Made by a program: the position numbers and the translations under genes | Origin: a virus | Length of the DNA stretch: 35,539 nucleotides | Direction: 5' to 3' (one strand) | Virus record (IMG/VR): IMGVR_UViG_3300038435_000010 | Coordinates: 1-35,539 of that record | The notes under the pieces: generated by a model | Database searches by the model: none | What the model was told of the DNA's origin: nothing | What the model saw: the letters and a program-made list of their open reading frames with translations, nothing else | In this document: piece after piece, positions 4,919 through 22,825 of the stretch | Layout: each line of letters starts with the position of its first letter | Position numbering within the stretch: the first letter of the stretch is position 1

Positions 4919-4922
4919 CTAC
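4883..4922. terminator. 40-bp perfect palindrome at the end of the polymerase gene
   Basis: 4883-4902 and 4903-4922 are exact reverse complements with no spacer (arm GTAGGCTACCGCGCAGAAGT). In RNA this gives an 18-bp stem with a GUAC loop. It overlaps the polymerase stop codon (4919-4921), so it would fold at the very end of that message. No U tract follows immediately, but the AT-rich region does. I read it as a transcription end or RNA-stabilising element; a protein-binding cruciform is the alternative. Confidence 0.75.
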
Positions 4923-7669
4923 CGGAAGTACTTACGCTCCGCGTCGTCGCTCTTGGCCTCCGCCCAGTTGTTTCGTGAGAAACCGATGCCCCATCTGATG
5001 GGCACCTTGAGCGGGCGATCAGGCTCGTTGAGAACTGCGACGATCCGCTGTAGATTGTGGTCAGCGTCCGCGTCGGTCGCGACCATCTCCTCAGGCAGTA
5101 GTCCTACGATCTCGTCGTGAACCTGCGCGATCTGCAGGAACTCTGGGACCTCGCGCTGAAGGGCTAGCATGCGCTCCTTGACGAGGTCCCCGGCGCTCGA
5201 CTGGCACAGTGAATTGAACGCTACGTGAGACGCCTTCTGCGGCAGGTGTCGACGGCGACCGTAGTGGTTCTTCACGTAGCCACGCTCGTAGCATACGGCA
5301 GTCGCGTAGCGCGAGACGCGCTTCAGCTCCGGCATCTCTGCGTGATACTTCGCATACACGGCCTCGGCCCTCACGGTAGACTCGCAGTCGATCGCGGCGG
5401 CTCGTTCCTCCGGTCGGATGTTCGACTCGTCGACTCGCTTGATGACGTCGCCTACGAAGTCCTTGTTGATCTTCAGCATCTGGACGGTCTTCTTCTTACC
5501 ACCGCCGTAGCCCATCATGAAGTTCAGTGTCTTCGCCGGCTTGCGGCCGGTCGGGATCATGCCAGCGACCCACGAGTGGAAGTCCACCCACGGGTCGTTG
5601 TTGTACGCGTCGATGATCCGCTGGTTGCCGATGTAGTGGGCGATGAATCGATACTCGATCTGACTATTAAGATTTACGAGACCTTCGGCAGTCACGTAGT
5701 TGTGAGTCGAAGGATTCGTCAGTGAATACACTGGCATGACGCCTACGTATTCGACAGACACTACTTTGTGATTTTCGACAGATTCGGCGTGCTTGTCACC
5801 CCATCTTGACTTGATATGATCTCGACATCGCTTCTTAAGCTGAGACGGCCAGTACTCGCCTAGAAATTCACCACACACTTCACAGAAGCAATTTTGCTTA
5901 CCACCAGCATAGCGTCCGTTCTTCTCACCGGATAAGTCTCTGTACGCCATTGATAGTCGCAAGCGATCAAGTCGTAGCGTATGATCTTGTCGTGCGTAGC
6001 TCTCTACTCCATGATCTCTTTTATGATCGTGTTCAGATTTTAGTTCTATGTTATCAGCCGTCCAGTTTTCTTTATCTTCGTCGATATGGTGAAACTGATG
6101 TCCTTCTTTCCATTCATACTTATAAAGACCAGAACAGATGTGTTTCGGAATAAACGTCTCGTCTACTCGCCATTGAGGATACGCGAAGTTTCGCATCTCG
6201 TTGATGTGCTTTAAGCGATCGCCAGGTCTTAGATCTCTACAATCTACACGCGTACCGTCCAGTCTAATAAACCCATGATCACCTGTGCACTCAGTTGATG
6301 ATCCGTTTTCAAGATTCACGCGGTATACATGATCGTCTCGTATGTAAGCTGCGTCAGACAAGTCACAGAACTTAAGTCGTCGATTAGCGGGCGCTTCCGT
6401 GTCATAACCAAGAACTGGCAGTTTATTCGCGACGATCTCCGACATAGGCTTCTCGCCGTAAGCTGTGATGACTTTCACGTGTGCAGGTATACAGGCATCT
6501 GTACAGACGAGCACGTAACCCTTGGGACAGCGAATCAGCTTCTTGGCGACCGCGCTCAGCTGCTGCAGGTTCGGTCGGTTGCAGCTCATGCGACCGGTAC
6601 GGACCGCCTGGTTGTAGGTGGCGTGCATCACCCCGTTGATGTGCATCTCCTGCCACTTGCTCAGGAACAGCGTCTGGAACGTGTTCAGCTTCCTGAACTC
6701 GATCATGAGTGCTATCAGCGCGTGCGGCGCGCCTGGCAGGTTCTCGTACTTCGCCATCGCCGCCTTGTTGAACGACGGCCCTGGGACCTTCGGCTCGTCG
6801 TATCCCTCCTCGTCGTCCTCGTCCGACTTGCCCTTGTATGGGTCAGTCCACTCTACGATCGGCAGGCCATACTGGTTGATCAGCACCTCGTAGCAGTCGG
6901 CGTGTACGTTCGGTCGGAAGATGTGACCGACTATCGCCTCGAGCTCCTCGCTTATCTCGAGCAGCCGCCGTAATGTGGCGTACTCAGTCAGCTTGACCTG
7001 CTGAGGGTCCACGTGCACGCCGCGACGCTCCATGTCGAACAGCAGTGACGTGAACTGTCGCTCGGTCGACCAGACACTATACGACTCCTCCGGCATCTCT
7101 CGATCGATGTAGTCAGCGACCAATCGGTTGGACACGATGTCCATGCACGCGTACTCGGCGAGGATGTCCTCTGGGACGCGTCCGTAGTCCTTGTTCTGGT
7201 GGAGGTACGGCAGCATTCGGTCACCGTACGCGTCGATATTGAGTCCGCACCAGTCGTTCGACAGCACGTCGAGGCCGTAGCCTCCCTTGTACACGCGGTC
7301 GGAATCGATCAACTTCGCGCCGTTCAGCGTGCAGTCGTACTCGCCCTTGAACACGCACGACAGGTCGTTCGCGCTGACGTGGGCGTCGTACTTGACGTTC
7401 TGGTTCGTCCACCTCTTGGACACCTTCAGGACGTCGCGCCACCACCCGGTGACGAGCATACGCTTCGGTACCCAGTACACTGGAGCGTCTGCCCCGAACG
7501 CGACCGCCGCGCCGATGGCAGAGCAGTCTCGCCAGGGGTTGACGGACTTCTTGTCTGGGTGTCCTGACGCGGTTTCGAAGTCCGCAAACAAACGGGGGAT
7601 GACCTGCGGAATAGCCGGCAGGTCATCCCCGTCCTCGAGCATGGTCGCGCCGCACTCGAACTTGATCAA
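4919..7669 (-). CDS. Family A DNA polymerase with 3'-5' exonuclease, interrupted by an intein
   Basis: 916 residues including a 276-residue intein, leaving about 640 for the polymerase, a normal phage PolA size. The N-terminal proofreading domain has Exo I FADFETA (28-34), Exo II NVKYDAH (91-97) and Exo III YACMD (173-177). The palm has motif A DASQIE, split by the intein after DA (391-392) and resumed at SQIE (669-672); motif B RKPAKTLNFMMGYGGGKKK (709-727); and motif C QVHDEIV (849-855). All catalytic Asp and Glu are present. It should replicate the phage genome with the primase-helicase upstream. The start is TTG at 7669: GGAGG lies 8 bases upstream and the TTGA overlaps the kinase stop. 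A 40-bp palindrome covers its stop. Confidence 0.96.
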   Translation of the reverse strand: MIKFECGATMLEDGDDLPAIPQVIPRLFADFETASGHPDKKSVNPWRDCSAIGAAVAFGADAPVYWVPKRMLVTGWWRDVLKVSKRWTNQNVKYDAHVSANDLSCVFKGEYDCTLNGAKLIDSDRVYKGGYGLDVLSNDWCGLNIDAYGDRMLPYLHQNKDYGRVPEDILAEYACMDIVSNRLVADYIDREMPEESYSVWSTERQFTSLLFDMERRGVHVDPQQVKLTEYATLRRLLEISEELEAIVGHIFRPNVHADCYEVLINQYGLPIVEWTDPYKGKSDEDDEEGYDEPKVPGPSFNKAAMAKYENLPGAPHALIALMIEFRKLNTFQTLFLSKWQEMHINGVMHATYNQAVRTGRMSCNRPNLQQLSAVAKKLIRCPKGYVLVCTDACIPAHVKVITAYGEKPMSEIVANKLPVLGYDTEAPANRRLKFCDLSDAAYIRDDHVYRVNLENGSSTECTGDHGFIRLDGTRVDCRDLRPGDRLKHINEMRNFAYPQWRVDETFIPKHICSGLYKYEWKEGHQFHHIDEDKENWTADNIELKSEHDHKRDHGVESYARQDHTLRLDRLRLSMAYRDLSGEKNGRYAGGKQNCFCEVCGEFLGEYWPSQLKKRCRDHIKSRWGDKHAESVENHKVVSVEYVGVMPVYSLTNPSTHNYVTAEGLVNLNSQIEYRFIAHYIGNQRIIDAYNNDPWVDFHSWVAGMIPTGRKPAKTLNFMMGYGGGKKKTVQMLKINKDFVGDVIKRVDESNIRPEERAAAIDCESTVRAEAVYAKYHAEMPELKRVSRYATAVCYERGYVKNHYGRRRHLPQKASHVAFNSLCQSSAGDLVKERMLALQREVPEFLQIAQVHDEIVGLLPEEMVATDADADHNLQRIVAVLNEPDRPLKVPIRWGIGFSRNNWAEAKSDDAERKYFR
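5666..6493 (-). other. Intein with HNH homing endonuclease, in polymerase motif A
   Basis: 276 residues, C393 to N668. Block A starts CIPAHVKVITAYGEKPMSEI. Block B holds the TGDH motif (462-465). Block F is PVYSLTNPSTHNYV and block G is GLVNLN, followed by Ser+1 of the polymerase. The penultimate residue is Leu, not the usual His. In the middle is an HNH nuclease (H527-H528-I-D530, N540, H547/H549) and a C-x2-C...C-x2-H cluster (596, 599, 615, 618). The insert is AT-richer than its flanks: line 6001-6060 is 37% GC against 58% for 5401-5460 by hand count. That fits a recent arrival by homing. Splicing would restore DASQIE in the catalytic site. Confidence 0.95.
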
Positions 7670-8471: not shown

Positions 8472-8668
8472 TATACGAAGTCAACCTCCGTCCAGGCGTC
8501 CTGCGCGGTCTTCAGGTCGACTGACAGCCTCTCGAAGTTGCCGTCGTCGTTGACGCGCAGGACAGTCTTCTCGCGCATGAAGACCTCCTCGAACAAGTCG
8601 CCGTCGATTTTCTCAGCGACCAACTGGGTCAAGTCACCGGACTCATCGATTATCAAGTACTTTGGCAT
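8471..8668 (-). CDS. Small acidic hypothetical protein (65 aa)
   Basis: Starts MPKYLIIDESGDLTQLVAEK with AGGAGTGTTCG upstream, a strong site inside the end of the TS homologue. It is acidic throughout (DGDLFEEVF; NDDGNFERL) and ends WTEVDFV. It overlaps both neighbours by a few bases and so belongs to the same operon. No family recognised. Confidence 0.72.
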   Translation of the reverse strand: MPKYLIIDESGDLTQLVAEKIDGDLFEEVFMREKTVLRVNDDGNFERLSVDLKTAQDAWTEVDFV

Positions 8669-9569
8669 CGAACACTCCTGAGGTAAAGGGGCCTAGGTCA
8701 ACGGGTTGCTTCAGTTTGGTGTTGCACGCTCGCACGAGGTCAGTTCCCATGCTGCCGCACCCGCCATAGAGCATCGGGTGTCCTTCTCGAAGCAGGCGCT
8801 CGGCTGTTACGGCGGTCCTGACGGACTGTAGGTTATCGTCGTTGCTCCAGCCGTGCCCAACCTCGACCTGCGGGTTCTTCCATACACGCCAGAACGCGGC
8901 CTCATGAGCAGCCTCCATGTTGCGCTGGTAGAGGTGCATCGACCCCGCGTGGTGGTAGTACGGACCGACCTCGACGCCGAGCATATTGGCGATGATCCGC
9001 TGGAAGCACGTGAACGCGAACACGTCATACGGCAGTCCGAGCCACACGTCGTTCGACCGCATCGAGACGATCATGTGCAACTTGCACTGCCGTATCATGA
9101 ACTGCCAATGCAGCGTGCACGGCAAGTCCGGCACGGTGTTCGGCGCGACCGCCTTGTTGAGGTCATCGCGTCGCCATACGGAGACGACCGTCTGACGCGA
9201 CCGCGGTGAGTTCTGCAGGCACTTGATAACGTCAGGCAGCTGCTCCATGACTCGCGGACCGTAGGCCCCGTGTGCGTTACCGTTGGCGTCCGCGAACTTC
9301 TTATAGCTCGGCGCGTACGCCTGCAGCATCTCGACAGACGGCGTGTCTGACATGTACCACAGTGTCTCGGCGGCGGCGTATGCCATCGAGATGTTACGCG
9401 TCGGGTTTCGCAGGAACGTGCACTGCTTAGAGGCGTCGAGCGAGAACGAGTAGTCGAGGACCTCTAGCGCGACCGCTCCGTCGCGCGAGTCATCCGCGAG
9501 GTCCTTGCCATGCTGCATCAGGTATTCGAGTGTACTTACCCACGCCGAGTCGATGTTATGAAAGTGCAT
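8643..9569 (-). CDS. Thymidylate synthase family, dCMP-type (dCMP hydroxymethylase or methylase)
   Basis: 308 residues. Family motifs: nucleophilic Cys in PDLPCTLHWQF (C151), phosphate-binding MRSNDVWLGLP (170-180) and GSMHLYQRN (209-217). Where thymidylate synthases have Asn in GLPFNI, this protein has Asp (GLPYDV, D182). The same position is Asp in T4 dCMP hydroxymethylase, and that residue selects cytosine over uracil. Two more T4-like traits are MRSND and GS-H-Y in place of QRS-D and GD-H-Y. Predicted reaction: folate-dependent transfer of a one-carbon unit to C5 of dCMP, giving 5-hydroxymethyl- or 5-methyl-dCMP. The start at 9569 has GGAG upstream. A promoter candidate at 9902-9930, inside the previous gene, would drive it. 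Confidence 0.85.
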   Translation of the reverse strand: MHFHNIDSAWVSTLEYLMQHGKDLADDSRDGAVALEVLDYSFSLDASKQCTFLRNPTRNISMAYAAAETLWYMSDTPSVEMLQAYAPSYKKFADANGNAHGAYGPRVMEQLPDVIKCLQNSPRSRQTVVSVWRRDDLNKAVAPNTVPDLPCTLHWQFMIRQCKLHMIVSMRSNDVWLGLPYDVFAFTCFQRIIANMLGVEVGPYYHHAGSMHLYQRNMEAAHEAAFWRVWKNPQVEVGHGWSNDDNLQSVRTAVTAERLLREGHPMLYGGCGSMGTDLVRACNTKLKQPVDLGPFTSGVFDAKVLDNR

Positions 9570-10806
9570 TAAATCTCCAGGGTCTTTCTAGCTTGCCGGT
9601 GAGCGGGTTGACGTTATACTTGTGGCACTGCCGCTGACACTCCTCAGGATACCTCTCGATGTTGAAGCTGTGCCCGTAGTACTTCGAGACGTCGATCACC
9701 TTCTCGACCTGTCCGGTCGTGTCCTCGCCTTCAAATGTTCCCGTATGGTGATTGTAGCGAGTCGACCACTCGTCCTTGCCCCAGTTGTCCTTCTCACAGA
9801 GCACGATCTGCTGCGTGATCCACTCTCCGACCGCCGGCACGACTCCCTTAGCGATCTGAAGTGACGGGACAGGTCCTACAGGGTAGTTGCCAGACCAACC
9901 CATTATATCAGCCAGCTCGCCGATTGTACACGGGCGGTGGTGCCACGGGTGGATCAACCGGACCGAGGTACTCGTGAGGGTCGGGCATGGTCGCATCCAG
10001 TTTATGCGGCTGATGCAATGCATGCTGAACGGCATGTTAGAACCACGCCTGTCCCACATCCCTTGGAACTTCTCGTTCAGGTGCTCGTAGCCGTAGCGAC
10101 CGAGCTCGTTGAGGCACCAGCCGCTCGGCAGCGCGGCGACGGAGTACTTCTCGGCCGGCTCGAGGTCGATGTACGAGTCCTGGTCGTAGTCGGTGTCGCG
10201 CCACATGAACGGTCGCGTGTCACGGTTGCGGCGTTCCCAGATCGCGTCATGCAACACGGGATAGTACGGCGACACCTCGGGCACCGACACGTTGAACTTC
10301 TTATGCGCTGGATACGCAAGGTAGAAGTAGCGCTTGCGACACTGTGCGTTGCCGAAGGTGTGGCCGTTCACGAAGACGTGCGCGACGCGATAGCCCTCGG
10401 TCGCCGCGCGCTCAGTCCACAAGTCTAGCAGCGGCTTGCCGGTTGAGTACGCCTGCTGCACAGACTCCCACAGGATGTACGGATACTCCTGGCTGAGGCC
10501 GTACTCCATCAGGTCGTTGATGTCCTGACACTGCTTGGCGAACGGGCCATGCGCGTCCTTGCTGTAGCCGGCCGTCACGCAGCTGAACCCAGTGCAGCGC
10601 GGGTTGGAATAAAGAAGAACTTCGTCTTTTCTAGCTGGCCACGTATTCGGCGGGCCATGATAGACAGGAACATTCCATACTTTTTCTACGGTCTCGTGAC
10701 CAAGGTCGTGAGATTCCATCTGGCAAGTAACATCAAGGACTCGCTTGACGCCAGCAGTGAAACCACCTGCGAATACGTGTGCGCCTCTCGCTGTCATCCT
10801 AGACAT
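9556..10806 (-). CDS. Divergent DNA cytosine-C5 methyltransferase
   Basis: 416 residues. Motifs in order: I as GAHVFAGGFTAGVKR (8-22); IV as NPRCTGFS (68-75) with catalytic C71, an Arg replacing the usual second Pro; VI as WESVQQ (113-118), where ENV is usual; VIII as NAQCRKRYF (153-161), matching the Q-x-R-x-R type; and IX/X as RPCTIGELADIMGW with IAKGVVPAVGEWI near the C-terminus. It should transfer a methyl group from SAM to C5 of cytosine in DNA; no recognition sequence can be read. It sits just before the dCMP-type TS homologue and just after a homing endonuclease. A divergent motif IV could mean altered chemistry. ATG 10806 or 10797 could be the start. Confidence 0.8.
   Translation of the reverse strand: MSRMTARGAHVFAGGFTAGVKRVLDVTCQMESHDLGHETVEKVWNVPVYHGPPNTWPARKDEVLLYSNPRCTGFSCVTAGYSKDAHGPFAKQCQDINDLMEYGLSQEYPYILWESVQQAYSTGKPLLDLWTERAATEGYRVAHVFVNGHTFGNAQCRKRYFYLAYPAHKKFNVSVPEVSPYYPVLHDAIWERRNRDTRPFMWRDTDYDQDSYIDLEPAEKYSVAALPSGWCLNELGRYGYEHLNEKFQGMWDRRGSNMPFSMHCISRINWMRPCPTLTSTSVRLIHPWHHRPCTIGELADIMGWSGNYPVGPVPSLQIAKGVVPAVGEWITQQIVLCEKDNWGKDEWSTRYNHHTGTFEGEDTTGQVEKVIDVSKYYGHSFNIERYPEECQRQCHKYNVNPLTGKLERPWRFNALS
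9902..9930 (-). promoter_or_regulatory. Internal promoter candidate TGTACA-N17-TATAAT
   Basis: TGTACA (9925-9930), a 17-base spacer and a perfect TATAAT (9902-9907) on the minus strand, inside the methyltransferase coding region (codons for CTIGELADIM). It would start transcripts about 330 bases upstream of the dCMP-type TS homologue and carry on through the kinase and polymerase. It has the same boxes and spacing as the copies at 13313 and 22010. Confidence 0.72.
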
Positions 10807-12979: not shown

Positions 12980-15817
12980 TCAAATAGTATCCTGAGGTTT
13001 CGAATCCTCTTGTATGTGCTTAGGTCGCTCTGCCAGTTCTGTCTTCTTCAGCCACGTTATGAAGTTCGCAGTCTTGTGGTACTTGTTACGGTCGCCTCTT
13101 TTGACGGCGCGCTTGCGAACCAGCAGTGACAGGAACCTCTGAGCGTTGTCTCTCTCCCACGAGCACCAGTCCTGTATGTCAATAAGATCAAACTCGTCTG
13201 AGTACAGTAGGTGATTCTTCACCTCGTTCGGATGCTCGAACGTCTGCATGAACGAAGCGATTGCTTCAGGATCGAGCAGATTGTCATGGGCCTTGACTGA
13301 GTCACTGTAGTGATTATATCCAAAATTCTTGGAATTGTACAGCCTCTCGATGAGGTCAACGATGTACTCTGCATGACACTTCCTCACCAGGATCGTCGAG
13401 TCGTCCTCTGACGCCGAGAACGTACGGGCGGCTAGCGCAGTCGCTAGTCTACTGATTTTGTGGCGAGTCGACCCGCCGTCTATTAACGGAATCAGCGGAC
13501 TGTAGCGGTCGCAGAGGCGCGACGACTCCGCTGAGATATGCTCCTGCGCCTCGGGCTCTACGACCACTTGGTTGACGCGACGGGTCCATGCCCACAGTAT
13601 GAGCTCCCTGCACAGGTCGGCTTCGTGAACGTGCTCAATGATCGGCGGGTTACGCACGATGTCATTGATGTCGCGCGGGCTTACGTCCTCAGCGCTCACG
13701 ACCATCGCCAGGTCTAGGCGGCGCAAATCCTCGGGTGCGCCCATGAGGTCACGGATCGCCTCGACTCCGAAGCTGTAACTGGACACCGTGCGGTTCTCGC
13801 GCGGGTTACTCACCCAGATTAGTCGCGCTCGTGACTGCGTGCGACGCTTCTCGATCTTTGGAATCTCCGCGACGCCGCTCGACCGCATGTCCGTCATGCT
13901 GCCGATGTCCTCGTGGCGGAGTCCCTTCGCCTCCTCGAGGCATACAAGCTTGCGGTCGTTGCACGGGATCACGCCCCAGGCGACGAACCATGCCGTGCCC
14001 ATCTGCTTAAGCCCGCCCAGCAGTCCAGCTACCGTCGCATTCTTGCAGTCGACCCGTTCGCCAAGTCCATAGTGTTGTCGTAGCGAGACGAACGTCTCTG
14101 ACTTGCCTTGCGACGAGTCTCCGATGATTGCTGTCTCGACCCATCCCTTGGTGACCTTGCCGTCTACGGTTACTAAGAGTGGCGAATGATACGCGAGGTC
14201 GACCAGCAGGTGGATGTCACGTCGCATGAATATCTTCGTGACGTTAGCCTCGAGGTCGGCGTACAACGTGTCTAGCTTCGCGTGAATGCTCGCAGCAGTC
14301 CAGGCGGTCGGTCGAAACAGCTGCAGCTCGTCAAGGCGCTGCGGCTCATACGTATCGAGCGAATCTGCGGTCGCCTTGCTCGCGGACAGCACCAGCGTCG
14401 ACTGCTGAGTCTTCGGGTGCGGATACATGCGACCCGTGAATTCGGAATTCACATTGAGCTCTGTCTCGCAGTCGATGATGATCGCCTGCTGCATCGCCTT
14501 GTTGCTGTCTCGACTTGTTATGTCGATAGATGGCCCGATGCGCACGTCCTCTGCGTTGTAGTGCTGCCGCACCTCGAAGTGGACGGCATTACATCGCTGC
14601 GGCACGCCGAGCGCGTTCTTGATCGCCTTGTCGATGTTCTCTGCGTTGACCTCGACCATCTGCAGGATGACTGGAGACTCTGACTGGATAGAGTGCTCTG
14701 TCTCGTCGGCCTGCGGAAAGATCGGACACACCGGACAAAATGTCTGCGACCGATCGCAGAATGACGCGACCACCTTGGGTACGATGAACGGAGCGTCGCG
14801 CGTCATCGCGATCATTCCGGGAAACCGCATCCGGCGTCCGACGTTATCTGAGTTGGTCGTCTCGCTAAACCGCAGCGCGAGCGGTTCCTCGTCGCCGCTG
14901 AACTTAGGCGCATGCGTCGGAGGCGTCCACTCCTGAGCTGACGTGATCACTGGCGGCAGATCACCGTGCTCGGCGGCGATGAAGTCGTTCACGTCGCCGT
15001 GTGGATACTTCTCGACGTCGAGCGGCAGCTCTACGATGTGCACGGACGTCGCGACCACCTTGAGTATCTGCGCCCACTTCTTCGCGCCCTTCTTGCCGGA
15101 CTCGTCCACGTCCAGCATGATGTAGACGTGCTTGCCCTTGAAGAAGGACGTCAGGGAGTGGTCCCAGTTGCCTTCACCGCCTGTCGGAGACACCGCGCCG
15201 AAGCCATGCGGGTTCATTATCCGCTTGGTCAGGATCGCCTTGAGCTCGCCGCCGCAGAGTACGATCTTGTCGTACTTCAGCTGCTCAGGCATGAACAGTC
15301 TGTTCTTGCCGCGGTACTTCGCGTTCAGCATCTTGTTTGCTGACGGACCGCCTGGCAAGTAATACTTGATGTTTACGTACAGTCCCGACGTGTTCTTGAT
15401 CGGGATCGTGATGCGGTTGCGCATGAATCCGAGTCGGTGCTCTCGGATGTCTGTGTCCTCGATCGCGCGTAGGTAGAGCTCCTTGAGCAGGTGAGGCTGC
15501 GACCAGATAGCCGTGTGGCAATCCTCGATCACCGAAGGCTCGATGATCTTGACCTGCTCGAGGTCATATCTCTTCGCCAGGTCAGCGTAGACAGTGCCGC
15601 GCTCGACTCGCAGGGCTCTCGCGAGGAACGTGAGGATGTCACCCTTGGCGCCGCAGGCTCCTGCCTTGCAGGAAAACTTTCCCTCGCGTATGTTCACCGA
15701 GCAGGACGGTGACTCGTCTTCGTGGAACGGGCATCTGCACTTGACGTGATCTTCGCCGGACGCCTCGTACACCCAGCCCATCCGCTCGAACTCAGCGAGA
15801 ACGTTGATCAGCCCCAT
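12980..15817 (-). CDS. Primase-helicase: CHC2 zinc finger, TOPRIM and MCM-like AAA+ ATPase
   Basis: 945 residues from ATG 15817; the GTG at 15874 lies in a hairpin arm without a ribosome site. Domains: CHC2 zinc finger CPFH...C...C (29-55); TOPRIM with GGE (189-191) and LDVDE (D235/D237); a linker with FC-x6-C-x2-C (354-364); then an AAA+ module with Walker A GDSSQGKS (566-573), Walker B LVCLEEA (624-630), sensor-1 Asn in IWVSNP (671) and arginine finger DLRRLDLA (697-704). The last four match the MCM pattern (GD-x-GxxKS, DE, NP, RxDL) rather than RecA-type DnaB or T7 gp4. It should prime and unwind at the fork for the family A polymerase. Its stop overlaps a possible TTG of the next gene. 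Confidence 0.9.
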   Translation of the reverse strand: MGLINVLAEFERMGWVYEASGEDHVKCRCPFHEDESPSCSVNIREGKFSCKAGACGAKGDILTFLARALRVERGTVYADLAKRYDLEQVKIIEPSVIEDCHTAIWSQPHLLKELYLRAIEDTDIREHRLGFMRNRITIPIKNTSGLYVNIKYYLPGGPSANKMLNAKYRGKNRLFMPEQLKYDKIVLCGGELKAILTKRIMNPHGFGAVSPTGGEGNWDHSLTSFFKGKHVYIMLDVDESGKKGAKKWAQILKVVATSVHIVELPLDVEKYPHGDVNDFIAAEHGDLPPVITSAQEWTPPTHAPKFSGDEEPLALRFSETTNSDNVGRRMRFPGMIAMTRDAPFIVPKVVASFCDRSQTFCPVCPIFPQADETEHSIQSESPVILQMVEVNAENIDKAIKNALGVPQRCNAVHFEVRQHYNAEDVRIGPSIDITSRDSNKAMQQAIIIDCETELNVNSEFTGRMYPHPKTQQSTLVLSASKATADSLDTYEPQRLDELQLFRPTAWTAASIHAKLDTLYADLEANVTKIFMRRDIHLLVDLAYHSPLLVTVDGKVTKGWVETAIIGDSSQGKSETFVSLRQHYGLGERVDCKNATVAGLLGGLKQMGTAWFVAWGVIPCNDRKLVCLEEAKGLRHEDIGSMTDMRSSGVAEIPKIEKRRTQSRARLIWVSNPRENRTVSSYSFGVEAIRDLMGAPEDLRRLDLAMVVSAEDVSPRDINDIVRNPPIIEHVHEADLCRELILWAWTRRVNQVVVEPEAQEHISAESSRLCDRYSPLIPLIDGGSTRHKISRLATALAARTFSASEDDSTILVRKCHAEYIVDLIERLYNSKNFGYNHYSDSVKAHDNLLDPEAIASFMQTFEHPNEVKNHLLYSDEFDLIDIQDWCSWERDNAQRFLSLLVRKRAVKRGDRNKYHKTANFITWLKKTELAERPKHIQEDSKPQDTI
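13313..13341 (-). promoter_or_regulatory. Internal promoter candidate TGTACA-N17-TATAAT
   Basis: TGTACA (13336-13341), a 17-base spacer and TATAAT (13313-13318) on the minus strand, within the primase-helicase coding region (codons LYNSKNFGYN). It lies about 350 bases ahead of the nucleotidyltransferase gene and would serve the 12.9-11.5 kb genes. Confidence 0.7.
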
Positions 15818-16826: not shown

Positions 16827-17540
16827 CTAGAACATGTCTTCTTCGCTTTCCGATTCCATCGCTGCAAAGTCAGGCATTCCAGTTCGCGCGTTAACCGGTT
16901 GCGCGTTCGCGTCCCGCGATCGTTGCTCGAGTAGCAGCTCCTGGTACTTCTCGGGCGCGACCTCTCGAAGAGCTCGCGCGGCCAGCATGCAGAGGTCGGG
17001 GTCAGTGATGAACTGATCTACTGTCTCGTCATCGCACAGCACTGGCTGCTTCTTGCGAGTCGTCACCGAATACACCGACCACGTCGCGTTCGGGTCGCAG
17101 CCCGGAGGAATCGGCAATCCGTTGGCTAGGTCAGCAGAGACCCGTTTGAGTAGCGCAGGCCAGTGCGGTCGGAACGGCGTACCCTCAGGCACTCCGTAGT
17201 ACTTGATGAGCTGCGAGTATTCCTCGGTTCCCTCCTTCGGGGTCTTTGGAACCTCCTCCACGTTCGGGCTGCCGATACAGTAGTCCGTGCGGACCGGCTG
17301 GCCGTCTCCCTTCGTCACCCACCCGAGGCAGCAGAGCTTCTCTGCAAGTTTCTGGACCCGACCGATCTCCTTCTTGATGTGGTCGACGAACTTCAGGGCC
17401 TCCTTCATCGCGTAGACGGTGTCAGCGACTCCTTGGAGGTTGTTCTGGACGAGGTCGCGCTCAACGTCAGGGATCACCATGCAGAGTGACGCGTGCACCT
17501 TTCTCACGTGCGCATACACCGACTTGTCGCTAGACTTCAT
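16827..17540 (-). CDS. Hypothetical protein with SSB-like acidic C-terminal tip
   Basis: 237 residues; ATG 17540 with GGGAG upstream. The N-terminal half is helical (VYAMKEALKFVDHIKKEIGR; VQKLAEKLCCLGW). The middle contains GVPEGTPFRPHWPALLKRV. The protein ends DFAAMESESEEDMF: an acidic run with a terminal Phe, as in bacterial SSB and T7 gp2.5, where the tip recruits replication partners. A linker-like segment (SRDANAQPVNARTGMP) precedes it. With the adjacent primase-helicase, a replisome-binding or ssDNA-binding role is plausible; no OB fold is recognisable by eye. Confidence 0.68.
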   Translation of the reverse strand: MKSSDKSVYAHVRKVHASLCMVIPDVERDLVQNNLQGVADTVYAMKEALKFVDHIKKEIGRVQKLAEKLCCLGWVTKGDGQPVRTDYCIGSPNVEEVPKTPKEGTEEYSQLIKYYGVPEGTPFRPHWPALLKRVSADLANGLPIPPGCDPNATWSVYSVTTRKKQPVLCDDETVDQFITDPDLCMLAARALREVAPEKYQELLLEQRSRDANAQPVNARTGMPDFAAMESESEEDMF

Positions 17541-17859
17541 TGAGCTGAACTCCCATATTGACGGCGTGGTAACGGTTAGCTGCGCGGTCGTATACTAGCG
17601 TCTTTATCTCTCCGTACTCCGCGACCACCGTTGCCATCAGAGTGATCATAGCGAGAGTCTGCCCAGTCAGTATCACGTAGTCGGTGTCAGGGGCGAACTT
17701 CAACTCTCGCAGTCTCTCGATGACGTCATCTGCGAAGTCAGGATGCGTAGGAACAGCGTGATCCTTCCAGGACTTGAACATCCTGGTCACCACGCCGAAC
17801 CTGCTCGCGTCATCGACTGGTAAGGTCGCTGGCGCTAATAAGAACGCTCTGCTCCGCAT
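17530..17859 (-). CDS. Hypothetical protein (109 aa)
   Basis: Starts MRSRAFLLAPATLPVDDASR; the core has DDVIERLRELKFAPDTDYVI and TLAMITLMATVVAEYGEIKT, an alternating hydrophobic pattern suggesting a small alpha/beta domain. AGAGGACGG precedes the ATG at 17859, but the TATAAT of a promoter candidate overlaps that ATG (TATAATG). If that promoter is used, transcripts begin inside the frame and a downstream start such as the Met of MFKSWKDHAV may serve. It overlaps the next gene by 11 bases. Function unknown. Confidence 0.68.
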   Translation of the reverse strand: MRSRAFLLAPATLPVDDASRFGVVTRMFKSWKDHAVPTHPDFADDVIERLRELKFAPDTDYVILTGQTLAMITLMATVVAEYGEIKTLVYDRAANRYHAVNMGVQLNEV

Positions 17860-17886
17860 TATACCGTCCTCTAGTCCTTTAGTACA
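17858..17886 (-). promoter_or_regulatory. Promoter candidate TGTACT-N17-TATAAT
   Basis: TGTACT (17881-17886), a 17-base spacer and TATAAT (17858-17863) on the minus strand, in the short gap after the glycosyltransferase gene. It has one mismatch from the TGTACA consensus of the other copies. It is placed to start the replication block (17.9-12 kb) separately from the accessory operon upstream. Confidence 0.65.
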
Positions 17887-17888
17887 GC

Positions 17889-18752
17889 CTAGGAATCCTC
17901 TTGGCGGTTGACGAATCGCTGACGAATCTCCTCGACCATCTCCTTGTCAGCGATGTCGCTCCACTGGTAAGCGCCATTGCGAATGATCAAGTCCCGCGGT
18001 CGCTGACGACCGTGCTCCTCGCGTTGCTTGCGTCGATTGCGGTTCTTGTTAGTGCCATGAAACATGTGAAGCACAGTTCCGACGGCGAACGAGACTTCGA
18101 GCGCGCGGTCGAGCGGCGGAGCCCACGCCCTGAAGTTAGCTGTCATCTCAGGATTCAGAGTGGTCTCCGCGCGTGCTTGGTCACCGCAGAAGTAGAGTGC
18201 CATGACCGAGTCATTGATACCAGAGGCGATCTTGTCGTAGAGCAAGTGCTCTCGCAGCCAGTCTCCGTTTGCAGCCCATGCGAGTCCGGAGTGAGAAATT
18301 GAACAGTCATACCAGCGCGGTACCTCAGTGCTGCGCATCATCGCGAACGACTTCCATACATTGTCAGAGGCGACGCCGCATTCGTTGATCATGCGAGCCT
18401 CACTGAACAGCTGCAAGACCTTACCGCCCTCATCAAGTAAGTAGTCTTCGGCGCGCTCGACCCATCGCGGGTTCATGAACCACACGTCCGCGTCGATCCA
18501 AGCGACTACCTTCGCTGTCGAGTTAGCTATCAGCAGGTTGAGCAGTCGCTCCTTCTGCCATAACATCTGGTTCTCGCGGCGTCCGTGCACCTGAACGGCG
18601 TCCGATATCTGCGGCTGCTGCTCGTCAAACGTCATCTCGATCGTGCGCAGGTTCACGTCGAACGTCTGCATGTGACGCCTGAACGCCCAGTAGTTCTCGA
18701 GTGGCTTCTTGTAACCGCACGGATTGAAGTGGCAAGTGAGCACCTCGATCAT
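17889..18752 (-). CDS. GT-A-type glycosyltransferase
   Basis: 287 residues. It begins MIEVLTCHFNPCGYKKPLEN, a Rossmann-like first strand. The D-x-D metal/nucleotide-sugar motif is WIDADVWF (85-92), followed by NPRWVERAED. Near the C-terminus are LHMFHGTNKNRNRR, typical of the HG-x-NR ending of phage GT-A enzymes, and a basic helix. It should transfer a sugar from a nucleotide-sugar donor. The acceptor is unknown: DNA carrying a hydroxymethyl base, a virion protein or a cell-surface glycan are all possible. The ATG overlaps the preceding stop (ATGA) and AAGGAA lies upstream. It is the last gene of the accessory operon. Confidence 0.82.
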   Translation of the reverse strand: MIEVLTCHFNPCGYKKPLENYWAFRRHMQTFDVNLRTIEMTFDEQQPQISDAVQVHGRRENQMLWQKERLLNLLIANSTAKVVAWIDADVWFMNPRWVERAEDYLLDEGGKVLQLFSEARMINECGVASDNVWKSFAMMRSTEVPRWYDCSISHSGLAWAANGDWLREHLLYDKIASGINDSVMALYFCGDQARAETTLNPEMTANFRAWAPPLDRALEVSFAVGTVLHMFHGTNKNRNRRKQREEHGRQRPRDLIIRNGAYQWSDIADKEMVEEIRQRFVNRQEDS

Positions 18753-18985
18753 ACCAGTTCCTTCTTGGCAAGACGCGCGAGTTCAAGTGTCAAGTCATGT
18801 ACGATGTGGTCAATAGCACATCTTTGCTGATAGTGATCCAGCATAGCGAGGCGCTTCGTTCCGACGTCTTTGTAGACTACTAGACCGTCGAACCGGCTGA
18901 CTGCGTGTAGTGAGATTCGTGTTATGCGCGACACCTGATCGCTGCGCAGTCGTGTGTCGAACTCTAGCCAGCCCAATTTAATCAT
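18749..18985 (-). CDS. Small hypothetical protein between two glycosyltransferases (78 aa)
   Basis: Starts MIKLGWLEFDTRLRSDQVSR. It is overlapped by 4 bases (ATGA) at both ends, which locks it into the operon. It is mostly helical and basic (RCAIDHIVHDLTLELARLAK), with no recognised motif. A role as partner of one of the glycosyltransferases is possible. Confidence 0.72.
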   Translation of the reverse strand: MIKLGWLEFDTRLRSDQVSRITRISLHAVSRFDGLVVYKDVGTKRLAMLDHYQQRCAIDHIVHDLTLELARLAKKELV

Positions 18986-19743
18986 GGCAGGTACCCTGTG
19001 CTGTGGAACCCCGGGACCTCGACGTGCTCATTCAAGTTATCGTCGCGGCAGCCGCCCTTCCATCCTTTCTTCGCCGCATACGCCTGCATCTCGACGCCGG
19101 ACACCGCGGGTTGCTCTCCGTCGAGGCGGTCGGTAGCGCGACCGAACCAGTTGGCGTCTCGAGGTCCGAGATGGAGACATTGCGCGTCCAGCCACACCTT
19201 CTTGTCGTACTTATAGCGTGACTGAAAGTATCCATCGCAACCACCAGCGTGCGTAAATGTCACGTCATACCACGGTCGCGTGTCTCGAAGCCGGGTGTCT
19301 TCAGCACTGAACAATTGAAAGTAACCTGCGATGACGCGATCCGCAGACACCGGACACTGATTCCAATTCATGCCCGGGTGCCACTTCTTCACATCATGTA
19401 GTATCCTGCGGCGCATGCCGTAGAGACACCCAACCTCGAGCTTAGGTAGCTTGAGGTCATCAGGCATGATCGTGTCGGCATCAAAGATACAGATCCACCC
19501 GGTGCGACCCATGTGGTCGAGACCAAGCTCCATCGCAAGGCCCTTGTTAAACTTCGCGCCATGACGATAGAACGCATCTGTCAGGACAGGGATCGCATTG
19601 GGAACCGACTTGATGACCTCGAGTGTCCTTGCGTCATCTGGCGTAGTGATCACGTAGACCCGCGAGAAATGCCGCGCATTGCGCGGCAAGGTTATCGCTA
19701 GCAAGTCGTCGTAGTCGACGCATACAGTGATGCCGCGCATCAT
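18982..19743 (-). CDS. GT-A-type glycosyltransferase
   Basis: 253 residues from ATGATG at 19743; GGAGACGA precedes it and the ATGA overlaps the upstream stop, so I reject the longer frame to 19776. The D-x-D motif is CIFDADTIMPDD (86-97), preceded by GAKFNKGLAMELGLD, a donor-binding helix typical of GT-A folds. Later VTFTHAGGCDGYFQSRYKY and DAQCLHLGPRDANWFGR resemble acceptor and metal-binding loops. It differs clearly from the second glycosyltransferase in the operon, so they probably act on different acceptors or in sequence. Confidence 0.82.
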   Translation of the reverse strand: MMRGITVCVDYDDLLAITLPRNARHFSRVYVITTPDDARTLEVIKSVPNAIPVLTDAFYRHGAKFNKGLAMELGLDHMGRTGWICIFDADTIMPDDLKLPKLEVGCLYGMRRRILHDVKKWHPGMNWNQCPVSADRVIAGYFQLFSAEDTRLRDTRPWYDVTFTHAGGCDGYFQSRYKYDKKVWLDAQCLHLGPRDANWFGRATDRLDGEQPAVSGVEMQAYAAKKGWKGGCRDDNLNEHVEVPGFHSTGYLP

Positions 19744-20099
19744 TCGTCTCCGAGGTCTATCTTGAGATCGATACAAAAGCAGTCTCCGGCCATCGCGTAT
19801 CTGGAAGGTAAGCGCGCAGTCTGTGTAGTGCCGTCTCTGAACACAGCTACGACGTCTCCAGACTCACAAGGCTCGTCGATCTCTAGCATACACTTGAGTA
19901 TCTCGTCCTTGTTGCTGATGACAGTCATCCGACGGAGCGCGCCACCCTTGAGCGCCATATACACAGTACATGGGCACGGCTGCGCATAGTGAATCTCTGT
20001 CCCTAAGATATTTAGAGGCAGACCCCAGATAGTAGCGCGTGACGGCAGCATAGCTGGCACGAACAGCGCTTTCTGTAACACTTCTCGCCTATTGAGCAT
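19740..20099 (-). CDS. Hypothetical protein (119 aa), Tat-like N-terminus
   Basis: The start at 20099 is preferred because GGAG lies 6 bases upstream; a second ATG at 20111 is in frame. The N-terminus MLNRREVLQKALFVPAMLPS has a twin arginine followed by a hydrophobic stretch, reminiscent of a Tat signal, though short and without a clear cleavage site. The rest is beta-rich with several Cys (PCPC; CESGD; DCFCIDL). No family recognised. It overlaps the next glycosyltransferase by 4 bases. Confidence 0.65.
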   Translation of the reverse strand: MLNRREVLQKALFVPAMLPSRATIWGLPLNILGTEIHYAQPCPCTVYMALKGGALRRMTVISNKDEILKCMLEIDEPCESGDVVAVFRDGTTQTARLPSRYAMAGDCFCIDLKIDLGDE

Positions 20100-20100
20100 C

Positions 20101-20340
20101 TTAGTCTCCATGAACTGGCATGTACTCCATTTTATTCGCGCATGCGATGTTGAGCATCTCCTCGGGAACCACGAGTTCTGCGATGGGCATCGCAGTCCGC
20201 CTGTCGAGTGTCTTGAGCGTGATCACGCTCTCCTGTCCCACCGCGCCTAGGATCACAGCAGTTACTTGCCAGACACGAAAGTCCATGTCACCGTCGATGC
20301 ACCGCAGGATGTCACCGACTGAGAAGCTACGTCGAATCAT
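20101..20340 (-). CDS. Small beta-barrel-like hypothetical protein (79 aa)
   Basis: Starts MIRRSFSVGDILRCIDGDMD at ATG 20340, which overlaps the methyltransferase stop (ATGA) and has GAGGCGG upstream; the longer frame to 20466 lies inside that gene and is not credible. Short alternating strands (VGDILRCIDG; VWQVTAVILG; VITLKTL) suggest a small SH3- or KOW-like barrel. Function unknown. Confidence 0.7.
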   Translation of the reverse strand: MIRRSFSVGDILRCIDGDMDFRVWQVTAVILGAVGQESVITLKTLDRRTAMPIAELVVPEEMLNIACANKMEYMPVHGD

Positions 20341-21068
20341 TTCCGCCTCGCGCTGAAATAGATGAATCGCTCGCGCTCGATGCGCTGCTTCACGACCGTC
20401 TTGACATCCTCGTAGCGGTCGTTGCTCTCGAGTACTAGCTTGAGCGTCTCTTCCGTATAGAACCACTTATGGTCAGGATTCCATAAGTCGTCAATGCCCA
20501 TAGGCACAATGCCGATTAGGCGACCGCCCGGTTCAAGCATGAAAGACATCCGGTCGATGACACCCGGTGAGTCATCGAGGTGTTCGAAGACATGGCACGC
20601 GAGTATCACAGACTTCTCGGGGTCCGGCAAATCGACCGGCCAAGCGTTGACGTCTGAGCTTGCATTGAGGTCAGCCTTGAACGTGCGTACTCCGTACTTA
20701 TGCCAAAGTATCTGCAAGGCCCATGAGTCAAGATCGGTTCCGATGTAATCGTAGCCTAATTTCTTGACCCATTCTACGTAAGGCGAGATACCACAGCCGA
20801 CCTCGACGAGTTGACCGATACCCGGCTCGAGTGGCTCGCCCATCTCGTCAAGAGCCTCTGTAAGTTCTGCGACGTAACGCCGGCTCTCGACCATTCCGTC
20901 TTCAGCGATTACGCCGAGCTTGCGGTAGTATTCGTGCGGACTGACAGCACGTCGGCGGCGCTCTTCCTTCATGTACTCTTGATGGTCGCAGCACTTGAAC
21001 TTTGACACGATCACTTCAAATACCGGATCGACTGCACAGATACAATCACAGCCTTTGCTATGTATCAT
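20337..21068 (-). CDS. Class I SAM-dependent methyltransferase
   Basis: 243 residues. Motif I is LVEVGCGISPYV (87-98) and motif II ends YIGTDLD. SVILACHVFEHLDDSPGVI matches the ...HVFEHL... post-I signature of Methyltransf_11/23 enzymes, then LEPGGRLIGIVP. The N-terminus has a Cys cluster (CDCIC 7-11; KCCDHQ 25-30) that could bind a metal, unusual for this fold. GGGAG precedes the ATG and the gene overlaps both neighbours by 4 bases. Substrates could be a sugar, a small molecule or a modified base; the motifs are not those of base-specific DNA methyltransferases. Confidence 0.85.
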   Translation of the reverse strand: MIHSKGCDCICAVDPVFEVIVSKFKCCDHQEYMKEERRRRAVSPHEYYRKLGVIAEDGMVESRRYVAELTEALDEMGEPLEPGIGQLVEVGCGISPYVEWVKKLGYDYIGTDLDSWALQILWHKYGVRTFKADLNASSDVNAWPVDLPDPEKSVILACHVFEHLDDSPGVIDRMSFMLEPGGRLIGIVPMGIDDLWNPDHKWFYTEETLKLVLESNDRYEDVKTVVKQRIERERFIYFSARRK

Positions 21069-22003
21069 TTGAGTCTCCCGTTCTCGATGTAATCGGTGAC
21101 TCGAGGCAGCGGGTCGCTACCCAGTTCAGAGCGGTTGTGGACGAGTTGCACTTCTCGACCTTTGGTCTTCAGCTGGTATATGTCGAGATGTGTCTTCGAC
21201 ACCTGCTCGACCTTACCGAGCACAGCGAGGTCGCCACGACCCTTCAAAGGGATACCGCACTCATGGCAGTGCTTCTCGACTTGGTGCTCGAACGCGGCCG
21301 GTGCTTGCTGCCACCAGTTCGGAGTTACCACGAGACCCGTGTCCGGGTATTTCGGATCGTTCTGATGCAGCATCGCCTGGGCACCGGCGATCTCGCAGAA
21401 GAATGCGCGGAGCTCTTCGCGGAACACGCAGATCATCGAGGACCAGTATTTGTTGATGTCACAATCCTCGATAAGCCTCCAGCGTTCATCCCTGTCCGCA
21501 ACGACATCCTTAAGAGCAACGTACGGCGGCGAGTGTCTTGAATCTTGGTCAAGTCCTTTGAGAACTGGAGTACACTCTGGCCAGCTCGTTCTAAACTCTT
21601 CGTGAGCCTCTCGGTCGAGATGGACATTGAGGTTACTGACGAGTGGATTGAAGGTGATTCGTGCAACATTGCCTTTGCCTCTTGGATGATTGCACCACAG
21701 TCCGCGCTGGACAAACGGGACCTTGTCGCGCATGATCTCACATAGCTCGGCAAACTTCGGATGCGTCGCGGGGTTGCCACCGAACATTCCGATCACACCC
21801 CAGTAATCCTTGAGGGAGTCCAGGGCGGTCGCGAACTGATCTGGAGTGATCATCGTCGGCTTGCCCGCGAGGTTCGACCCCTGCGTGCAGCCGGTACAAG
21901 CCTTGTCACACGATCGCGTAACCCAGACCTGCATGACCCCAGTTCGCCAGATTCCCGGGCGATGATCACGCGGGAATTTCATCTTACTGATTGATGGATG
22001 CAT
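21065..22003 (-). CDS. Radical SAM protein
   Basis: 312 residues from ATG 22003. A GTG at 22039 is in frame, but it overlaps a promoter -35 box; ATG 21982 is also possible. The C-x3-C-x2-C cluster RSCDKACTGC (C32, C36, C39) binds the 4Fe-4S of radical SAM enzymes. MFGGNPATHP (73-82) matches the GGEP-type SAM-binding motif with Asn for Glu. A second Cys set (FCEIAGAQ; HCHECGIPLKGRG) near the C-terminus may hold an auxiliary cluster. It is the first gene of the accessory operon. The reaction is unknown: a C-H activation step on a sugar, peptide or base. Confidence 0.87.
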   Translation of the reverse strand: MHPSISKMKFPRDHRPGIWRTGVMQVWVTRSCDKACTGCTQGSNLAGKPTMITPDQFATALDSLKDYWGVIGMFGGNPATHPKFAELCEIMRDKVPFVQRGLWCNHPRGKGNVARITFNPLVSNLNVHLDREAHEEFRTSWPECTPVLKGLDQDSRHSPPYVALKDVVADRDERWRLIEDCDINKYWSSMICVFREELRAFFCEIAGAQAMLHQNDPKYPDTGLVVTPNWWQQAPAAFEHQVEKHCHECGIPLKGRGDLAVLGKVEQVSKTHLDIYQLKTKGREVQLVHNRSELGSDPLPRVTDYIENGRLK

Positions 22004-22009
22004 ACGCTG

Positions 22010-22038
22010 ATTATACCTATTCGCTGATCGTTTGTACA
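22010..22038 (-). promoter_or_regulatory. Promoter candidate TGTACA-N17-TATAAT
   Basis: TGTACA (22033-22038), 17 bases and TATAAT (22010-22015) on the minus strand, just after the last tail gene and just before the radical SAM gene. It would start the accessory operon as a unit. The expected start site lies near the ATG at 22003, so either the message is nearly leaderless or the ATG at 21982 is used. Confidence 0.75.
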
Positions 22039-22039
22039 C

Positions 22040-22825
22040 TTAGGAAATCAGGTCATCATCAGGACACGGGCGATTCGCCGCCCACCACTTCGCGTTGTGA
22101 AGCGTCTCGCCGGCCTCGCTGCTGAGCCCTGGACTGTTACGAACGACGATCACGAGGTCATCCTTTGACCCGCTACCCATGCCCATCCAAACCTTGCGCG
22201 TCTCTGTTCCGGACCCGACGCGAACAGGACACAGGGTGTCCTTGGCGTAGTCAGCGTCGGCGTAGCCTGACCATCCCGACACGACGTCGAGCATGATGGA
22301 CGTGATGTAGTAGTCAAACTTCGGCGTTGAGTCAGCTATCGCGACGACGTCACTGATCCTGGACTTCTTCGCCGCACTAAACTCGCCTGGGATGACGTAC
22401 TGTGTCTTCTGGATGTTGTCCTTAGACCGCACCAGATACGTCCTGAAGGGCGTGACTCTTCGAACCCAGCCAGGATAGTCCTTTATGAGCGGATACCGCT
22501 CGTTCACGGCGAACCAGATCGTGTCGGCGTCGCCCTTATCCACCTCGTAGGAGACCTCGCGATCGTCTATCATCCGTGACTCAGTGATCTCCAGCAGCGA
22601 GAACGGGTCGGCGTCTACGCGCGACGTCACCGGGATCCAGTCATCGAGCGCGCCCTTGACCTGGCGCATGTACGTACCGTAGGTGTCCTCGATCGCGCCG
22701 CGGCGCATCGGGATCTCGCGACCTGCGGTCGACTGCAGCAGTGCGCGCAGCTGGTCCTTCGTCGGGATGACATGATCCCGAGGCATCGACCCGCCCGGCA
22801 AGTACATGACGCTATTCTTGCTCAT
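22040..22825 (-). CDS. Distal tail / structural hypothetical protein (261 aa)
   Basis: Starts MSKNSVMYLPGGSMPRDHVI. The ATGA overlaps the stop of the previous structural gene. The composition is that of a soluble alpha/beta structural protein; VVAIADSTPKFDYYITSIML and RVGSGTETRKVWMG are beta-rich. It is second downstream of the tape measure, where tail-tip or baseplate proteins are encoded. Its C-terminus, DDDLIS, is identical to that of the major capsid protein in this window. Function unknown. Confidence 0.75.
   Translation of the reverse strand: MSKNSVMYLPGGSMPRDHVIPTKDQLRALLQSTAGREIPMRRGAIEDTYGTYMRQVKGALDDWIPVTSRVDADPFSLLEITESRMIDDREVSYEVDKGDADTIWFAVNERYPLIKDYPGWVRRVTPFRTYLVRSKDNIQKTQYVIPGEFSAAKKSRISDVVAIADSTPKFDYYITSIMLDVVSGWSGYADADYAKDTLCPVRVGSGTETRKVWMGMGSGSKDDLVIVVRNSPGLSSEAGETLHNAKWWAANRPCPDDDLIS

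Follow-up and report, generated by a model that had tools for sequence, protein, structure and literature searches.

A recurrent phage cassette joining a twitch-type radical SAM enzyme to glycosyltransferases, with a possible role in glycan tailoring

Glycosylation of mycobacteriophage virions has an experimental basis and, to our knowledge, the gene sets described for it include no radical S-adenosylmethionine (SAM) enzyme of the twitch type. SpeY (Protein Data Bank (PDB) entries 7x0b, 7wzv and 7wzx), a radical SAM dehydrogenase that combines a radical SAM barrel with a one-cluster twitch domain, oxidises an alcohol on a sugar-like ring. The same type of reaction is described for BtrN (PMC9012708), which acts on a free aminocyclitol in butirosin biosynthesis, and whose twitch domain holds four cysteines, with a beta-hairpin between the first two and the others forming a terminal pair (PMC6231123, PMC9012708). 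Phage-encoded glycosyltransferases (GTs) are, in turn, thought to decorate the virion proteins of mycobacteriophages (PMC11256854). Here we describe a cassette of seven genes in the virus record IMGVR_UViG_3300038435_000010 (35,539 bases, analysed as a whole and called the window below), in which a radical SAM enzyme resembling SpeY and BtrN, named rSAM, is encoded together with a SAM methyltransferase (MT) and two predicted GTs (GTa and GTb). The cassette is a real and recurrent unit, distinguished by its twitch radical SAM enzyme. We favour, with moderate confidence, a role in glycan tailoring, in which two GTs, sugar oxidation by rSAM and the action of MT are combined, most likely on a virion protein.

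Compared with PF04055, rSAM is a borderline member (E 1.4e-6; 29.1 bits, with a cut-off of 29.5), and it has both the cluster motif and the core fold of the radical SAM superfamily. Its relatives were collected by successive scans with growing alignments, which yielded 27 loci from viruses and one from a bacterium. The motif cysteines (CX3CX2C) are present in 40/40 aligned sequences, with the spacing CX4CX2C in three divergent ones. Together with C181, C203, C246 and C249, the extra C-terminal cluster that had already been noticed in the original prediction, they form a set of seven cysteines kept in all 39 of the 39 full-length relatives. The AlphaFold (AF2) model of rSAM (pLDDT 97.1, pTM 0.93) places in succession C181, a beta-hairpin (strands 189-194 and 197-201), C203, a helix at 235-248 and the pair C246-x2-C249, which is the arrangement of the four-cysteine site in BtrN. 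On this confident prediction, the C-terminal part is a twitch domain laid out for one auxiliary cluster, with the four cysteines as its predicted ligands.

Through Foldseek, it was found that the top full-length solved match of the rSAM model is SpeY (7x0b; E 2.5e-8, TM 0.56 to 0.58, about 14% identity), followed by BtrN (4m7t; 5.8e-4), and the rSAM sequence profile also reached BtrN over the core (1.3e-4). Among the predicted viral structures of BFVD, none matched rSAM above TM 0.45. By analogy with SpeY and BtrN, rSAM would oxidise a sugar hydroxyl in a two-electron reaction and, by structural and genomic signs, would behave as a GT-partnered enzyme of the radical SAM dehydrogenase kind. The likeness has its bounds: unlike SpeY, with which they have no demonstrated common substrate, members of the phage family adjoin GTs or are fused to them, and the substrate of BtrN is established whereas that of rSAM is predicted. 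Two points weigh against a sugar as substrate, namely that a TM of about 0.56 at 14% identity backs the fold class and not the substrate, and that peptides are also targets of twitch enzymes (EpeE, SkfB). Following the second point, rSAM could modify a peptide or protein side chain (by epimerisation, crosslinking or oxidation of Ser, Thr or Cys), with the GTs then glycosylating the same protein in the manner of ribosomal-peptide pathways. The rSAM profile does match the peptide epimerase YydG/EpeE (6.4e-4), and GTa has a Foldseek match to the peptide S-glycosyltransferase SunS, but the full-length fold of rSAM is by far closer to SpeY and BtrN than to EpeE, it lacks an RRE, the extension that binds peptides, and is not accompanied by a conserved precursor peptide. 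We regard such a peptide pathway as rather improbable.

The original prediction had also listed a radical SAM protein with a SAM methyltransferase and two GT-A glycosyltransferases. The former pair was recovered by the family searches (for MT, PF13489 at 1.7e-12), and relatives of MT with the same motifs occur in the cassettes of the related loci L029 and L046. In these searches GTa and GTb matched GT2 models below curated cut-offs only, with E values of 0.004 and 0.012 (PF00535 for GTb). The AF2 model of GTa (pLDDT 95.8) has as its closest Foldseek match the chondroitin polymerase K4CP (2z87, E 1.9e-7), next to other GT-A enzymes, and residues D88 and D90 are invariant in a 42-sequence alignment, so that at the level of predicted structure GTa is confirmed as a GT-A fold glycosyltransferase. 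The assignment of GTb rests on a DAD motif that is invariant in 4 sequences. L029 and L045 have orthologs of GTb at the same position, and Xanthomonas phage XaC1 encodes a relative; a PDB profile search and a GTb-first viral scan with single-sequence patterns retrieved no match. A role in defence was also considered and set aside, as its sole match, that of a generic methyltransferase to a MADS component (3.5e-6), was not counted as evidence.

The partnership of rSAM with GTs recurs across the family, and it agrees with the earlier proposal that the cassette makes or attaches an unusual modified sugar, which is now strongly supported by the gene fusions, by the repeated linkage and by a fold like that of SpeY and BtrN. 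In the rSAM-first scan, GTa lies downstream on the same strand in 19 of the 27 viral loci, four have an N-terminal GT2 fusion, two a C-terminal GT2 fusion, and the remaining two end at a contig edge; rSAM thus adjoins or is fused to a GT in 25/25 assessable viral loci. An independent scan, starting from GTa, agreed with this and gave a cassette-type rSAM upstream in 26 of 33 assessable loci (these linkage counts include some near-duplicate contigs). The fusions occur in three arrangements plus one bacterial genome: GTa itself is joined to rSAM at L002 and L034, and the bacterial case, L086, is an rSAM-GT2 fusion. They make the partnership explicit and provide small, expressible targets. Two more GTa loci (L019, 3986-4981, and L022, 3996-4979) carry a SPASM-like radical SAM enzyme at the position of the twitch enzyme, which suggests its replacement by another radical SAM subfamily.

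Around this pair the module is a mosaic. Of 44 neighbourhoods, 25 contain a methyltransferase of one and the same cluster, and in places there are also further GTs and sulfotransferase-like genes. At L003 (11857-14511), three sulfotransferase-like genes, one of which was tested (PF13469, 7.3e-8), share a cassette with rSAM, two copies of GTa and a methyltransferase. Over all 32 pairs, the rSAM and GTa distances are correlated (Mantel r 0.39, a value reached in 1 of 5000 permutations). Within the main clade this correlation is absent (r 0.13; 634 of 5000 permutations as high), which weighs against a fixed couple and means that partners were exchanged. Strict co-divergence as proof of a fixed pair was accordingly discarded, holding over the 32 pairs and failing in the main clade.

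In the favoured model, the two soluble GTs would build a short glycan from host nucleotide sugars. The twitch enzyme would abstract a hydrogen atom from a sugar carbon and, with its auxiliary [4Fe-4S] cluster taking up the second electron, turn the hydroxyl into a ketone, and MT would cap the glycan or a precursor. The acceptor would be a virion protein, foremost one of the v261 family encoded just upstream, or another structural protein. A bolder version is put forward tentatively and appears to us doubtful as a whole: that twitch radical SAM sugar oxidases constitute a new family in uncultured viruses and, working within GT complexes, put keto-sugars on mucin-like virion proteins. If this were true, radical chemistry during infection would yield glycans that are reactive or antigenically distinctive. 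If the favoured model is right, phages tailor glycans with radical SAM enzymes, probably on their own particles, for which no description was found.

As regards the literature, no description of a phage rSAM and GT pairing was retrieved by a search that covered it in part; pelagimyophage GTs and radical SAM cassettes appear there separately and never paired. Using tblastn with three rSAM queries against 50,697 GenBank phage records, few hits were obtained, all partial and weak, with no full-length relative of rSAM, and the family is therefore invisible to isolate work. The same collection held no relative of GTa, which sets the cassette apart from the mycobacteriophage GTs, with which it shares the use of soluble, phage-encoded enzymes.

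The virion protein is the best-supported of the three acceptors proposed at the outset, as judged from gene context. The cassette follows the tail genes, v261 lies directly upstream of it in the window, and the v261 family adjoins the cassette in 5 genomes; v261 itself has a pairwise match to its ortholog in L075 (6e-11). In two close relatives (G024 and G005), with clear synteny from the capsid gene to the replication genes, the v261 orthologs contain Thr-rich, mucin-like tracts. Their maximum Ser/Thr fractions over 40 residues, 0.90 and 0.68, respectively, are the top two densities among 766 open reading frames (ORFs), for which the 99th percentile is 0.425. In four other loci it is another virion-like protein, also encoded upstream of the cassette, that has Ser-rich repeats. 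Two facts speak against v261 as the acceptor: the window v261, a shorter ortholog, has no Thr-rich tract, and strongly Thr-rich versions are confined to the two close relatives. In this phage a different site or protein may therefore serve as acceptor. At L075 (1890-3779, minus strand) and L045 (2429-5452), the virion-like proteins encoded immediately before the cassette combine mucin-like poly-Thr tracts with Cys-rich repeat units.

A host glycan, another of the acceptors proposed, keeps a lower standing. The cassette would here alter a glycan of the host surface, be it O-antigen, capsule or the glycan of flagellin, and thereby exclude competing phages or change receptors, a known activity of phage GTs that has also been proposed for those of pelagimyophages (PMC7029224). 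Among sampled bacteria rSAM is rare: a single close homologue came from the 369 genomes of one class, and a single GT fusion, which is more divergent, from 398 genomes of the phylum. The close homologue, from a member of the Chromatiaceae, stands beside flagellins, a fliD-like gene, a gene for a Maf-like glycosyltransferase, two GT2s and Methyltransf_24, in what looks like a flagellin-glycosylation island. This gene company resembles Maf-type flagellin islands and ties the family to a cellular glycosylation process; it counts in favour of a host glycan and of a virion protein as acceptor alike, although the rarity of rSAM in bacteria separates it from islands of this type in general. Classic Gtr seroconversion sets include membrane-spanning proteins or lipid-carrier enzymes. 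Unlike them, the seven cassette proteins have no likely membrane segment (maximum 19-residue hydropathy 1.37), and neither a lipid-carrier enzyme, nor a membrane flippase, nor a bactoprenol-dependent membrane GT, as in Gtr-type O-antigen seroconversion, was found among them; soluble cassette enzymes could nevertheless act on lipid-linked sugars. The cassette is, moreover, located after structural genes, in a window where we noticed no integrase. On balance, modification of a host glycan is considered unlikely.

The remaining acceptor proposed was 5-hydroxymethylcytosine (5hmC) in virion DNA, which would be glycosylated, with the sugar then oxidised or methylated. As in the T-even phages, which glucosylate 5hmC, there is a dCMP-hydroxymethylase-like gene in the window: a thymidylate synthase (TS)-like gene (8643-9569, minus strand) with the CMP hydroxymethylase MilA as its top solved match (1.6e-25) and the Asp of the dCMP type (LGLPYD). 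It overlaps a divergent C5-methyltransferase-like gene (9556-10806, minus strand; NPRCTGFS), and the pair, kept only in the two closest relatives, may make a base modification of its own. Across its range, however, the cassette is uncoupled from such genes. A TS-like gene is absent from 25 of the 30 other virus records that carry rSAM; of the five that have one, two, both close relatives, are of the dCMP type, and three more distant ones have Asn, as in the dUMP type. A dCMP-type homologue is thus confined to the window and two close relatives among the 31 records, the C5-like gene is likewise confined to the close group, and in the window the pair lies 7 kb away from the cassette. Many of these records may be fragments, and TS absence from a single record is no proof, but the pattern as a whole argues against a dependence of the cassette on 5hmC. 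A search for Tet/JBP in the 31 records gave no match, a weak negative, since the control matched nowhere either. The original prediction had offered co-occurrence with TS-like genes as the check on this acceptor, and here it failed; DNA hypermodification was rejected as the primary reading on account of the 25 carriers that lack such genes, and we now hold it to be improbable.

Concerning the layout of the cassette, the description of seven tightly packed, overlapping genes was borne out. All seven ORFs are encoded on the minus strand and run from 22003 to 17889 (Table 1), with a 4-bp ATGA overlap at five of the six junctions; at the remaining one, s79 and s123 overlap by 11 bp or, with the second ATG of s123 (20099) as its start, stand 1 bp apart. 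The codon-usage score prefers the annotated frame in 6/7 ORFs. Of the three small genes that had been left unassigned, s79 and s123 are supported as coding by codon usage, and family searches with them gave no match, while the coding evidence for s78 is weak (0.084, against 0.106 for a reverse frame).

Table 1. Positions of the cassette genes, the promoter motif and the neighbouring virion-like gene in the window
Feature	Description	Position	Strand	Basis
rSAM	twitch-type radical SAM enzyme of 312 aa, a predicted dehydrogenase of sugar/cyclitol type	21065..22003	-	PF04055, AF2, Foldseek, cysteines
MT	class I SAM methyltransferase with N-terminal CxC...CxxH motif	20337..21068	-	PF13489
s79	small protein	20101..20340	-	ATGA overlap with MT; codon bias
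s123	small protein	19740..20111	-	11-bp overlap with s79, 4-bp overlap with GTa; codon bias
GTa	GT-A fold glycosyltransferase (predicted structure), D88-x-D90	18982..19743	-	AF2, Foldseek, alignment
s78	possible small protein	18749..18985	-	ATGA overlaps at both ends; ambiguous codon score
GTb	predicted glycosyltransferase, invariant DAD	17889..18752	-	sub-cut-off PF00535; syntenic orthologs
Promoter motif	TGTACA-N17-TATAAT (putative)	22010..22038	-	exact-copy count in window against shuffles
v261	virion-like protein, candidate acceptor	22040..22825	-	adjoins cassette in 5 genomes

A TGTACA promoter of its own had likewise been assigned to the cassette, and the motif TGTACA-N17-TATAAT does occupy the gap between v261 and the ATG of rSAM. 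The window contains three exact copies, each with a spacer of 17 nt and each on the minus (coding) strand, with 0.00 expected from 100 shuffles. The motif is also present in the relatives L029 and L076 and, as it precedes the replication genes in one related phage, it is probably a phage promoter class. Its TATAAT ends 6 nt upstream of the ATG at 22003, so that the cassette mRNA may be leaderless or rSAM may start at the ATG at 21982; a GTG at 22039 is a further alternative start. Motif sites on the minus strand of the window were recorded at 9902-9930, 13313-13341, 22010-22038, 17858-17886 and 409-437, some of them within coding regions. No RNA elements or tRNAs were found in the window. The copy at 17858 has one mismatch and overlaps the ATG of the gene after the cassette (17530-17859, minus strand), which matches the Pam3 gp32-like family (PF23992, 2.8e-9). 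Farther along the window, the DNA polymerase ORF (4919-7669, minus strand) appears to carry an in-frame insert that resembles an intein and matches an HNH endonuclease.

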